35,891 nucleotides of DNA from an uncultured Granulosicoccaceae bacterium (GTDB lineage Bacteria; Pseudomonadota; Gammaproteobacteria; CALCKW01), in NCBI GenBank assembly GCA_937925815.1, contig CALAMQ010000049.1, positions 1 through 35,891 of the forward strand, written 5' to 3'. The position numbers and the translations under genes were made by a program. Within the stretch, counting starts at the first letter, position 1. Each line of letters starts with the position of its first letter. Positions 1,424-5,890 of the stretch are shown here, piece after piece. The notes beneath the pieces are model-generated. The model did no database searches, was not told where the DNA came from, and worked only from the letters and a program-made list of their open reading frames with translations.

Positions 1424-1522
1424 ATGCCCGCTGCGCTCAAAGGTTTTCTTGGCCTTGTCTTGCTCTTTTTGACGTTTTTGTTGGTCTCTTGCCCCGCACT
1501 CATCTCGCCGGGGGGCGCGTGA
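1424..1522 (+). CDS. 32-residue lipoprotein-like peptide, coupled to XpaC
   Basis: A short frame encodes MPAALKGFLG followed by a strongly hydrophobic stretch ending in LLVSC (Cys23), then CPALISPGGA. A single Lys near the N-terminus, a hydrophobic core of about 13 residues and L-V-S-C form a credible lipobox, so this could be a tiny lipoprotein with a 10-residue mature part, or a single-span membrane peptide. Its TGA stop overlaps the GTG start of the XpaC gene (GTGA at 1519-1522), the same junction type used twice more in this module. The ribosome binding site is weak (GGTGG at 1412-1416). Alternatively it is a leader needed only for coupled translation of XpaC. I know no named family for it. 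Confidence 0.5.
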   Translation: MPAALKGFLGLVLLFLTFLLVSCPALISPGGA

Positions 1523-2379
1523 GTTCGGCGCGTCGCATTGGCGGCGGATCGCGCGCAGGGGAGTCGCCACGCGCTGGCGCTAAAGGACTGCTCCTGTATG
1601 CGTTGCCTTTGCCCTTGTTGGTGGTGTGCATGCTCGCGCTCGCGCGTGGCGAGGTGGTTCCAGCACTGGCTTTGGGGGCAGCTTTCGGCGTTTGCCTAGT
1701 GGCCGCAAACCTGACCCGCCGTGGTATCCGTATTGAGCAAGCAGCACTGCGTCGAAAGATTGTGCGCAGAGCCAGTGTCATCCCGTACAAGAGTGTGGGA
1801 GCGGCGTTGACCGCCGCGGGCATCTTTCTCGCCGGCTGGCTCGGCAGTGGCTATGGCATCATCGAGTCCGTGATGTTCGCGGGCCTAGCGGCTCTAGGCC
1901 ACCACTGGCGATACGGACACGATCCCGCGCGACGCGCGCAAGACCTCGGGGCGGTTGGGGTTACCGCTGAAGAGGTGCTCGATGTGCTCAACGAGGCCGA
2001 AGAGCGTATTGAATCCATTGAAGCCGTCGCTGCGACCTTCAAAAACGCAAGCTTGCGTGGGCGCTTGCAGCACATAGCGTCCGAAGCGCGCAATATTCTC
2101 AGCATCATTGAAGAAGATCCACGCGACCTGCGACGCGCACGTAAATTTCTCAAGGTCTACCTCGACGGCGCGCAGCAAGTGACGCAAGGGTATGCGCGCG
2201 CGACATCGCTTGCGGGCGGTGATGCGCTTGCCTTGTCTGACAATTTCAGTCGAGTGCTCGACACCATTGAATCCGTGCTTGAGGAGCAACGTGTGAAATT
2301 GCTTGAAAATGACCTCAACGATTTAGATATCAAGATCGAAGTTCTGCAACTGCAACTCGAAAAAGAGGGTGTTGCCTAG
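1519..2379 (+). CDS. XpaC-family membrane protein
   Basis: A 286-residue protein of the XpaC (5-bromo-4-chloroindolyl phosphate hydrolysis) family. The N-terminal half has several hydrophobic segments (about 23-43, 48-62, 94-112 and 115-128), indicating an inner-membrane protein. The C-terminal half carries the family pattern: an Ile-rich helix (IESIEAVAATFKNASLRGRL), ILSIIEEDPRD, then ARKFLKVYLDGAQQVTQGYA, and an acidic coiled coil at the end. The biochemical activity behind the family name is not well defined. XpaC and TelA genes are commonly neighbours, as here. GTG at 1519 was chosen because it overlaps the preceding stop. A longer frame opening at 1402 would add 39 residues lacking family likeness. 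Confidence 0.82.
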   Translation: MSSARRIGGGSRAGESPRAGAKGLLLYALPLPLLVVCMLALARGEVVPALALGAAFGVCLVAANLTRRGIRIEQAALRRKIVRRASVIPYKSVGAALTAAGIFLAGWLGSGYGIIESVMFAGLAALGHHWRYGHDPARRAQDLGAVGVTAEEVLDVLNEAEERIESIEAVAATFKNASLRGRLQHIASEARNILSIIEEDPRDLRRARKFLKVYLDGAQQVTQGYARATSLAGGDALALSDNFSRVLDTIESVLEEQRVKLLENDLNDLDIKIEVLQLQLEKEGVA

Positions 2380-2457
2380 CCATTGTGTCGAAGGCAACGG
2401 CCCGTTTCACAGCGAACAGACTGCTGCATCAATAGTTAAATATGTGGAGTGAAACCT

Positions 2458-3633
2458 ATGAGTGAATTGTCGACTGAAACACAGGGCGCACTCGAGCGCG
2501 CATTGAAAGCCACGCCTGGCACCGGTCTAGAGGCCTTGCAGGATGAACCCATTACAGTGGCGAACGCGAACACTGAGCAGCGTGCAGCCATCGATGCCTT
2601 GCGCCGTGAGATTGACATGGCGGACAGCAATTCTGTGTTGTTTTTTGGCAGCAAGGCGCAAGAACAATTGACCTCTGTATCCGACAGTATGCTGGAGGGT
2701 GTTCGAAACAAAGACTTGGGTTCAGCTGGTGAGTCACTCAATGACATGGTCGCAGTGCTGCGCGGGTTTGATGTCGACGGCTTGAGCCCCGAGGCGTCGC
2801 CAGGTTTTATCAGCCGCATCATTAACTGGATTCTCGGTCGTGGAAAGCCGATGGCAAAATTTATCCAGCAATATGAAACTGTGCGCCCGCAGATCGAGAC
2901 GATTACCGACAAGCTCGAATCCCACAAAACGATGTTGTTGACTGATATCGCGTCGCTCGATCGCTTGTACGATGCCAATTTGGAATATTTTCACACACTC
3001 GAACTCTACATCGCGGCGGGTGAGGCCGAGATCACCGAGTGCGACCAGGTCACGATTCCCGCCATGAAGGCTGAGGTCGAGGCAAAAGCCGAAGATGTGC
3101 TCATCGCACAATCCTTACGTGATCTGCACGCCCGACGCGATGATCTCGAGCGCCGTGTCCACGACTTGAAGCTCACACGTCAGGTGGCCATGCAGGCATT
3201 GCCGAGCATCCGAATGGTGCAGGAAAATGACAAAGGCCTGATCACAAAAATTAACTCAACGCTGGTCAACACGGTGCCACTGTGGCGCAACCAGTTGGCG
3301 CAGGCGGTCGCGATTTTCCGCTCGCAGAAAGTCACGCGAGACGTCAAAGCGGCGACAGATCTGACCAACGATCTGCTTGAGAAAAATGCTGAGAACCTGC
3401 GAACGGGCAACCGCGAAGTGCGCGAGCAAATGGAGCGGGGCGTATTTGATATGGACTCGGTTCGCAAAGCGCATGGCGACTTGCTGGCGAGCATCGAAGA
3501 GAGCTTGCAAATTGCCGATGAGGGCAAGCGCCGTCGGGCTGAGGCGGAGGTGGAACTGGGTAAGCTTGAATCTGAGCTTCGAACTGCACTCACTCGCACA
3601 TCCGCGCAACAAGTTGAGGAGACTGTGGCGTGA
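2458..3633 (+). CDS. telA: TelA-family protein (toxic anion resistance)
   Basis: A 391-residue, almost entirely helical and coiled-coil protein with the layout of the TelA/KlaA family (PF05816). Members are named for tellurite resistance but are widespread where tellurite is irrelevant, and have been linked to envelope stress and antimicrobial tolerance. Recognisable parts are the central GFISRIINWILGRGKPMAKFIQQYE segment seen near 110-135, the MLLTDIASLDRLYDANLEYFHTLELYI helix, and a C-terminal helix bundle. No signal peptide or membrane span is seen, so it is cytosolic or peripheral. GGAG at 2446-2449 fixes ATG 2458 in preference to the in-frame GTG at 2449. Its TGA overlaps the GTG of the SPFH gene. 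Confidence 0.92.
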   Translation: MSELSTETQGALERALKATPGTGLEALQDEPITVANANTEQRAAIDALRREIDMADSNSVLFFGSKAQEQLTSVSDSMLEGVRNKDLGSAGESLNDMVAVLRGFDVDGLSPEASPGFISRIINWILGRGKPMAKFIQQYETVRPQIETITDKLESHKTMLLTDIASLDRLYDANLEYFHTLELYIAAGEAEITECDQVTIPAMKAEVEAKAEDVLIAQSLRDLHARRDDLERRVHDLKLTRQVAMQALPSIRMVQENDKGLITKINSTLVNTVPLWRNQLAQAVAIFRSQKVTRDVKAATDLTNDLLEKNAENLRTGNREVREQMERGVFDMDSVRKAHGDLLASIEESLQIADEGKRRRAEAEVELGKLESELRTALTRTSAQQVEETVA

Positions 3634-4709
3634 GCCTGTTTGATCGATTGTTTGGCGAGTTTGTCGATGTCATCGACTGGGTCGACGATTCGCGGGACAC
3701 AATGGTGTGGCGCTTTCCGCGCCACGGCAATGAGATCAAGTATGGCGCGAAGCTGACAGTGCGCGAAGGGCAAACGGCCGTGTTTGTCAATGAAGGCCAA
3801 GTGGCTGATGTTCTCGGTCCAGGCCTATACGAACTCGACACGCGCAATTTGCCCGTGTTGACAACACTGCAAGCCTGGCCGAGTGGGTTCCAGAGCCCCT
3901 TTAAAGCAGAAGTGTATTTTTGCAACACTCGGCGTTTCACAGACCTAAAGTGGGGAACACGCAATCCTTTGATGATGCGTGACGCCGAATTTGGCCCGGT
4001 TCGAGTGCGCGCCTTTGGCACTTATACCTTGAGAATTGTCGACGCCAGTCGATTCTTGCGCGAAATCGTCGGTACTGACGGTGTGTTTTCCGTTGACGAA
4101 ATCAGCCACCAATTGCGCAATTTGATCGCAAGTGGCTTTGCCAGTGTGGTGGCGTCTTCTGGTATTCCCGTCCTCGATCTGGCGTCTCAGTATCCAGAGC
4201 TTGGGGATTACCTCGGGGAATCCCTAAGCGATCTCTTCGCTGAATATGGCTTAGAGGTGCCAACATTGGCAATTGAGAATATCTCTCTGCCACCGGCCGT
4301 TGAGGCGGCACTCGACAAACGTACAAGCATGGGCGTCACGGGGGATTTGGGGCGGTACTTTCAGTACCAATCCGCCGCCTCAATGGAAGAGGCTGCAAAA
4401 AATCCAGGTGGCACGGCGGGCGCCGGGGTTGGTATTGGGGCTGGCATCGCGATGGCACAGCAGATGGTTGGGCAGATGAACCAGCCTGTGCCACCGCCAT
4501 TGCCCTCGGCGCAATTTCATGTGGCGCGCGACGGCAAGGCCACTGGTCCGCACGCACGCAATGAGTTGGCGTTGATGGTTGCCTCTGGACAATTGACAAC
4601 CGAGACCTTGGTCTGGTGTGCCGGGATGCCGTCGTGGTGCCGGGCGCAGGATGTGCCGGAGCTTGCAAGTTTGGTGTCGACTGAGAATCCACCACCACTG
4701 CCGCAGTGA
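3630..4709 (+). CDS. SPFH-domain protein with C-terminal GYF_2 domain
   Basis: A 359-residue protein of the bacterial SPFH/virion-core-like group (YdjI type). Residues about 25-240 carry the SPFH-type fold: KYGAKLTVREGQTAVFVNEG, then a DLKWGTRNPL segment, then VRAFGTYTLRI. A Gly/Ala/Met-rich linker (about 260-285) leads to a GYF_2 domain (about 293-350, Y/F-hVARDGKATGPHARNEL, W-x-x-GMPSW), a protein-interaction module often found at bacterial membranes. There is no transmembrane segment, so membrane contact would be peripheral or through partners. GTG 3630 overlaps the telA stop and has a strong TGAGGAGA site at 3615-3622. Its own stop overlaps the next GTG. It probably works as an oligomeric scaffold with its neighbours. 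Confidence 0.88.
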   Translation: MSLFDRLFGEFVDVIDWVDDSRDTMVWRFPRHGNEIKYGAKLTVREGQTAVFVNEGQVADVLGPGLYELDTRNLPVLTTLQAWPSGFQSPFKAEVYFCNTRRFTDLKWGTRNPLMMRDAEFGPVRVRAFGTYTLRIVDASRFLREIVGTDGVFSVDEISHQLRNLIASGFASVVASSGIPVLDLASQYPELGDYLGESLSDLFAEYGLEVPTLAIENISLPPAVEAALDKRTSMGVTGDLGRYFQYQSAASMEEAAKNPGGTAGAGVGIGAGIAMAQQMVGQMNQPVPPPLPSAQFHVARDGKATGPHARNELALMVASGQLTTETLVWCAGMPSWCRAQDVPELASLVSTENPPPLPQ

Positions 4710-5890
4710 GATCGCGCGATCTTGGAGCAACCGGCAAGCGGTCGGGGATGGGCGCTGTTGCGGAACAATCGCATTTCCCCTGTGATCAGTGTGGAGCGGT
4801 TCTCCGCTATGCCATAGGCACGACGGCGCTGAGCTGTGAACACTGTGGATTCGAAAACGCCATTGAGTCGTCCGAACAGCCGATACTTGAGCACGATCTC
4901 AACGATGCGCTGAAGGCCATAGAATCGAGTCCGGCCGACGTTGTGGAACACGCAGCCTCGGTGCGTTGCCAGAGCTGTGGTGCGGGTTTTAGCTTGGAGG
5001 CCAATACCCACGCCGGTGAATGTGTCTTTTGCAGTGAACCGGTGGTGATCGACACGTCGACAGTGCGACGCTTCCAGCCCGAATCGTTGTTGCCATTGGC
5101 GCAAGAAGAGTCGCAGGCGCGCGCTGCGCACCAACGCTGGTTGCGCGGGCTGTGGTTTGCGCCGTCTGGGCTGCGCCGGATGGCGCAAACGGATCAATCT
5201 TTCACAGCTGTATTCTTGCCCTACTGGACGTACGACAGTGACACGGCGTCCAACTACCGTGGCGAACGTGGCGATACCTACGTCACGCGCAGGACGGTGT
5301 GGGTCAAACGCAATGGCCGACGGGTGCGCGAGACACAACGCGTCACCAAAGTGCGCTGGCGAGCGAGATCGGGCCGAGTGCAACGGCACTTTGACGACGT
5401 ACTCGTCGGCGCGAGCAACACGCTGCCGCGGCAAATCACTGACCGCCTCGCACCCTGGGATCTCGACAAGTTGGTGCCCTATTCGCCGCAATGGCTAAGC
5501 GGATCGGAGAGTGCGGTTTACCAGGTGCCGATTGACGAGGGCTTCGATCTCGCCAAAGACGCCATGAGCCGCACAATCACCGCCGACATCAAGCGCGATA
5601 TTGGCGGCGATTTCCAGCGTGTGCACGCCGTGCAAACGCGCCACAGCAACACGACCTTCAAGCATGTGTTGCTACCGGTGTGGGTGGCTTCGTTTCGGTA
5701 TGGCGGCAAGCCGTATCGCTTTTTGGTCAACGGACGCTCCGGTAAAACAGTCGGCGAGCGGCCCTGGAGCGCGTTTAAAATTGCATTTGCGGTCATAGCC
5801 TTCCTGGTACTGGTCATTGGGGGGCTGTGGTTTCTCGATCATGCAGGCTACCTCGATCTGATGCTCAAACAGCTCGCTCGGCACGTTTGA
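4706..5890 (+). CDS. Double zinc-ribbon membrane-anchored protein (YdjG-like)
   Basis: A 394-residue protein starting with two zinc ribbons: CDQC...CEHC (about 26-47) and CQSC...CVFC (about 88-110). A long soluble middle region follows (SFTAVFLPYWTYDSDT, then YRGERGDTY and a basic stretch of Arg/Lys/Val), and one C-terminal membrane span (about 358-378, FKIAFAVIAFLVLVIGGLWFL). Such proteins are often labelled 'primosomal protein N' or 'TFIIB-type zinc ribbon', but nothing here resembles a helicase. The layout matches the YdjG-like partner of SPFH proteins. GTG 4706 overlaps the previous stop, as elsewhere in this module. ATG 4748 would remove 14 residues and begin closer to the first ribbon, and is a real alternative. 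Last gene of the module. Confidence 0.82.
   Translation: MRSRDLGATGKRSGMGAVAEQSHFPCDQCGAVLRYAIGTTALSCEHCGFENAIESSEQPILEHDLNDALKAIESSPADVVEHAASVRCQSCGAGFSLEANTHAGECVFCSEPVVIDTSTVRRFQPESLLPLAQEESQARAAHQRWLRGLWFAPSGLRRMAQTDQSFTAVFLPYWTYDSDTASNYRGERGDTYVTRRTVWVKRNGRRVRETQRVTKVRWRARSGRVQRHFDDVLVGASNTLPRQITDRLAPWDLDKLVPYSPQWLSGSESAVYQVPIDEGFDLAKDAMSRTITADIKRDIGGDFQRVHAVQTRHSNTTFKHVLLPVWVASFRYGGKPYRFLVNGRSGKTVGERPWSAFKIAFAVIAFLVLVIGGLWFLDHAGYLDLMLKQLARHV

Follow-up and report, generated by a model that had tools for sequence, protein, structure and literature searches.

A recurrent proteobacterial operon that joins XpaC-TelA genes to an SPFH-zinc-ribbon pair behind a one-helix microprotein

Five genes, for a microprotein, XpaC, TelA, an SPFH protein and a double zinc-ribbon protein (ZnR), form a unit that is found again in many Gamma- and Alphaproteobacteria. 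They probably encode a widespread, unstudied membrane-protection complex. The example described here lies in a window of 35,891 nucleotides, the whole stretch of DNA that was analysed, from an uncultured Granulosicoccaceae bacterium, where a check of the sequence places five tightly packed frames, all on the plus strand, at 1424-5890 (Table 1). TelA and XpaC are widespread, have so far lacked a mechanism and are named after incidental phenotypes. The operon links them by gene linkage to an SPFH/zinc-ribbon pair known from Bacillus and adds a missing piece, the microprotein that heads it. Rhodobacterales and other cultured bacteria are tractable hosts for probing TelA function.

Table 1. Genes of the operon, with positions in the window and features of the predicted products (TM, transmembrane segment)
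Gene	Position	Strand	Product
microprotein gene	1424..1522	+	32 aa, one TM, predicted N-in/C-out; MPAALKGFLGLVLLFLTFLLVSCPALISPGGA
XpaC	1519..2379	+	286 aa; PF10112 1.5e-26
TelA	2458..3633	+	391 aa, no TM, long helical hairpin; PF05816 2e-107
SPFH/Band_7_1 protein	3630..4709	+	359 aa, no TM; PF13421 2.2e-98, GYF_2 PF14237 6.4e-17
double zinc-ribbon protein (ZnR)	4706..5890	+	394 aa; two CxxC...CxxC ribbons, long-stranded beta domain, TM 356-380

The genes share the sequence GTGA at three junctions, between the microprotein gene and XpaC (1519-1522), TelA and SPFH (3630-3633), and SPFH and ZnR (4706-4709). The original prediction described five frames that run together with three such overlaps; the frames and overlaps are present, but the run is not unbroken, because a gap of 78 nt separates XpaC from TelA. 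Fixed stoichiometry, which had been read from the overlaps, is unsupported, given that they vary outside the genus and are not kept in most relatives. The identities assigned from the sequence (XpaC, TelA, a GYF-containing SPFH protein and a C-terminally anchored double zinc ribbon) are borne out by Pfam matches, cysteines and TM prediction, which gives one segment each for the microprotein and ZnR, at least two for XpaC and none for TelA or the SPFH protein. A promoter scan of the window was at chance level, and a terminator scan returned 10 sites against a mean of 5.7 (sd 2.8), with the sites falling inside genes. Upstream of the operon, at 339-1022, lies a 227 aa frame with a secreted-looking N-terminus (MLALCAGSVVNAAD) and without a Pfam match.

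The gene arrangement is not a product of chance. Public genomes were searched with a ZnR profile and the best 80 loci, ranked in a way that favours close relatives, mostly Rhodobacterales, were combined with 12 earlier loci to give 92. The co-occurrence on which the original prediction depended is seen in these neighbourhoods, with all four large genes present in 68 of the 78 ZnR loci that have enough flank. SPFH is upstream of ZnR in 79 of 85 loci, and four-gene linkage was found in 9/12 other ZnR-match genomes that were fetched and searched. Two genomes (G070 and G200) have XpaC-TelA-SPFH intact and ZnR on a separate contig. More distant relatives, such as Vibrio, Comamonas and Tsukamurella plasmids, carry SPFH-ZnR without the rest of the module. 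In the Rhodobacterales loci (L043, L044 and most others), TelA and SPFH are separated by a DUF2927 gene whose start resembles that of a lipoprotein.

Co-occurrence was surveyed in 229 genomes of the class, among which 12 have ZnR (E < 1e-50), 14 a strong Band_7_1 match, and 17 XpaC and 23 TelA above cut-off. XpaC is found only with TelA (17/17) and ZnR only with strong Band_7_1 (12/12). XpaC is present in 11 of the 12 ZnR genomes versus 6 of the 217 others (Fisher p 8e-14, as with all such p-values a rough figure, because related genomes are not independent).

Several loci stand apart from this general pattern. One Rhodobacterales-type module (L060) sits on a contig whose title, Enemella evansiae, names an actinobacterium, which may reflect contamination or mislabelling. 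The Methylotuvimicrobium locus (L028:2953-18356) has SPFH-ZnR without adjoining XpaC-TelA, preceded by two frames with Hsp70/DnaK-like starts, and genes for a TIR-domain protein and a TRAFs-binding protein lie near SPFH-ZnR on a Vibrio coralliilyticus plasmid (L155:605-2849).

The frame at 1424-1522 is a real gene. Translation of upstream sequence reveals a similar peptide of 26-34 aa 5' of XpaC in each of twelve relatives, and an HMM built from these peptides finds further gammaproteobacterial copies outside its seeds (L022, L031-L033, L038-L040 and L053) with E-values of 1.8e-5 to 1.6e-17; L025 is the sole tested gammaproteobacterial XpaC locus without a match to the HMM. The alphaproteobacterial equivalent at XpaC loci typically reads MSxTGLQKLAFFLLVALILYVSxxGGA. 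A combined HMM, run against all six-frame peptides of 1.77 Mb, detects 77 loci at E < 0.01, every one at an XpaC start and none elsewhere; some of the 77 are extracts that overlap at the same site in a genome, and 23 of them supplied seeds. Judged by an alignment that combines the two sets of very short sequences, the alpha- and gammaproteobacterial forms would constitute one family. Its members are 27-47 aa long with a single TM segment, and 69 of 75 start with ATG.

The microprotein is under purifying selection. The pN/pS ratio over 25 pairs, two of which near-duplicate others, is 0.26 in frame versus 1.06 and 2.37 in shifted frames, and differences by codon position number 159/82/327. The TM score of the microprotein is 2.62, and positive charges at its N-terminus suggest an N-in/C-out topology. 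Neither a Pfam nor an NCBIfam model matches it, and no paper on an XpaC-linked small protein was found in the literature searched. The copy on a Thiodictyon plasmid (L159:3432-6459) carries a hypothetical-protein annotation and lies immediately 5' of XpaC, without an annotated TelA alongside and with arsenosugar biosynthesis genes adjoining. The microprotein also heads XpaC-TelA pairs without adjoining SPFH or ZnR (L120, L122, L128 and L142). Therefore, its partner is most likely XpaC, and these pairs define microprotein-XpaC-TelA as a sub-unit of the module.

XpaC has its TM segments at the N-terminus, followed by a helical part predicted to be cytoplasmic, and its GTG start at 1519 agrees with the conserved M-S-x-A-x-R-Y N-terminus of homologues. 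At one locus, a second XpaC-like frame with a weak match lies upstream of the main XpaC (L064:3899-5805). TelA was modelled by AlphaFold2 with a mean pLDDT of 70 and a poorly modelled C-terminal part; the hairpin is formed by helices 131-209 and 214-304, with pLDDT about 75-97 over 131-280. Foldseek returns only generic long helical bundles for TelA (best E 1.6e-3, query TM-scores 0.14-0.34), and matches to pore-forming toxins in the fold search were taken as coiled-coil noise. Sequence searches of the PDB with TelA and XpaC gave nothing significant.

The eight ribbon cysteines of ZnR (C26, C29, C44, C47, C88, C91, C106 and C109) are all invariant in 33 homologues. The AlphaFold2 model (pLDDT 89.8, pTM 0.82) consists of the two ribbons, the beta domain and the C-terminal TM helix. 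ZnR has no Pfam match above cut-off, a PDB sequence search gave nothing significant, and a fold search likewise found nothing (best E 0.06, probability 0.06).

The C-terminal region of the SPFH protein is arranged as PPPLP-GYF_2-PPPLP. A PPPxP-type motif occurs within the final 14 residues of 76 of 79 SPFH homologues, 69 homologues also have one ahead of the GYF domain, and none of the 79 ends in a zinc ribbon. In a PDB sequence search the sole match was to the GYF region of 7z3c. The flotillins FloA and FloT have an N-terminal TM or hairpin anchor; the SPFH protein of the window is without such an anchor and has no TM-like segment. GYF domains bind proline-rich peptides, so self-assembly of the SPFH protein through GYF-PPPxP contacts is a natural hypothesis.

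On balance, the operon probably encodes a membrane-associated envelope-stress complex, a sub-membrane scaffold made of two joined units. Complex formation, anchoring roles and stress function are inferred, and the parallel with Bacillus depends on homology across phyla. In the first unit, the microprotein and XpaC, as inner-membrane proteins, would tether coiled-coil TelA to the cytoplasmic side of the membrane. In the second, ZnR would sit in the membrane through its C-terminal TM helix and would recruit the soluble SPFH scaffold, which may multimerise, probably aided by binding of the GYF domain to the PPPxP tails of neighbouring subunits. The joint scaffold could then stabilise the membrane or organise envelope complexes under membrane-active stress, acting alongside PspA where it is present rather than in its place. 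The stress setting is proposed because xpaC-yaaN, yceC-H and pspA-ydjGHI of Bacillus all belong to the sigma-W envelope-stress regulon (PMC3498285), and by this analogy the membrane-stress role that had been predicted is retained. A more specific version, in which the operon is a distinct PspA-free machine, common in Gamma- and Alphaproteobacteria, whose one-helix microprotein gates or anchors XpaC-TelA on a GYF-PPPxP self-polymerising SPFH protein, is possible but doubtful.

The main rival to a membrane-stress scaffold is a metal or metalloid role, in which the module would shield secretion or membrane enzymes from oxyanions of the tellurite or selenite kind, or aid TerC-type metal export, with membrane stress secondary. 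This role is unlikely, and stays in play through the genes that neighbour the module, examples of which were confirmed by Pfam. In 8 gammaproteobacterial loci (L018, L029, L031, L032, L033, L040, L041 and L053) the gene directly 5' of the microprotein encodes a thiopurine S-methyltransferase (TPMT, PF05724), at a spacing of 15-17 nt in the two that were measured, L018 and L029. A TerC gene (PF03741) in the same orientation precedes the microprotein-XpaC genes in 10 alphaproteobacterial loci (L044, L052, L061, L063, L070, L072, L083, L084, L100 and L101), and in L042 it lies upstream on the opposite strand. TelA is, moreover, named for tellurite resistance, and the Thiodictyon plasmid places XpaC near arsenosugar genes. 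However, neither neighbour is universal, and the window operon has neither alongside, its genome encoding TPMT elsewhere. In addition, disruption of Listeria lmo1967, a TelA/YaaN-like gene, raises susceptibility to nisin 4-fold and to tellurite 2-fold (reported in PMC12791056), such that the nisin effect exceeds the tellurite effect.

The original prediction had TelA substitute for PspA, and a model in which TelA polymerises to do so in a YdjG/YdjI-like complex now appears quite improbable. Relatives of the SPFH protein and ZnR do work with PspA in Bacillus (PMC8581546), the structure predicted for TelA contains a long helical hairpin, and the claim that no PspA is encoded here holds well beyond the operon itself: a PspA HMM finds none in any of the 92 loci, where a PspA gene in the same operon would have spoken against the prediction, and PspA/IM30 (PF04012) gives no match at E <= 0.001 in the window's own genome (99% complete). 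The module is independent of PspA in gene order. Nevertheless, comparison of TelA with PspA by hhalign gives a probability of 0.8%, and there is no specific fold match, although a distant relation is conceivable, given shallow profiles and a TelA model of mean pLDDT 70; XpaC, also considered as a PspA homologue, was rejected at 0.2% by profile comparison. Bacillus has the TelA-family genes yaaN and yceH together with PspA (operons in PMC3498285). PspA is above cut-off in 14 of 44 genomes of the public loci and in 7 of 13 ZnR genomes, in each of these 7 on a different contig from ZnR. Within the class, it accompanies the module more often than expected, in 7 of 12 ZnR genomes versus 38 of 217 others and in 10 of 17 XpaC genomes versus 35 of 212 others, enrichments to which genome size could contribute. 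Enrichment of PspA with the module, rather than depletion, is not what replacement would give.

A partial Ter-type anti-phage or xenobiotic system with TelA as its sub-membrane component is highly improbable. Ter systems are described as including TelA and TerC (PMC7824862) and TerC adjoins in some Alphaproteobacteria, but the window's genome lacks TerD, as do 15 of 18 XpaC-TelA genomes, and PADLOC gives no match above noise.

The literature searched, which covers few subscription journals, held no description of a joined XpaC-TelA and SPFH-ZnR operon and no paper that treats TelA, SPFH and zinc ribbon together; only PMC12791056 combines TelA, XpaC and PspA. The closest known system to the scaffold proposed here is pspA-ydjG-ydjH-ydjI of Bacillus subtilis. 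YdjG carries a TM segment and an uncharacterised domain besides its two zinc ribbons, and YdjH is a TPM protein (PMC11237479); YdjI is predicted to be soluble, and YdjG and YdjH are required for foci of YdjI and of PspA (PMC8581546). Both systems pair a Band_7 SPFH protein without a TM segment with a double zinc ribbon that has one. The predicted match of the SPFH protein and zinc ribbon to YdjI and YdjG is upheld by Band_7_1 in both SPFH proteins, by an Enterococcus zinc-ribbon protein with PF08271 that matches ZnR at 3e-23 and, for YdjG, by its published description. Unlike the Bacillus operon, that of the window is without PspA, has PPPxP-GYF-PPPxP in place of the C-terminal zinc ribbon of the SPFH protein, and adds XpaC, TelA and the microprotein. 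None of the five products has the TPM domain of YdjH, the partner that in Bacillus binds both YdjI and PspA, so anchoring must work differently here.

On an Enterococcus gallinarum plasmid (L157), SPFH is immediately followed by a ZnR homologue (26%, 3e-23), also without PspA, but there a TPM gene stands where XpaC-TelA stand here, and the SPFH protein has a zinc ribbon at its end. The window operon has TelA in common with Ter stress systems (TerB/C/D/F, TelA), and TerC is adjacent in some Rhodobacterales, whereas TerD (PF02342) was not found in the window's genome. Adjacent XpaC and TelA genes (PF10112, PF05816) are also present as xpaC-yaaN in Bacillus and lmo1966-lmo1967 in Listeria, but in the window the pair is joined to SPFH-ZnR, with the microprotein first. 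By sequence relationship, the window operon thus appears to join relatives of two Bacillus operons that are separate there but are induced together, as members of one sigma-W regulon, under envelope stress.
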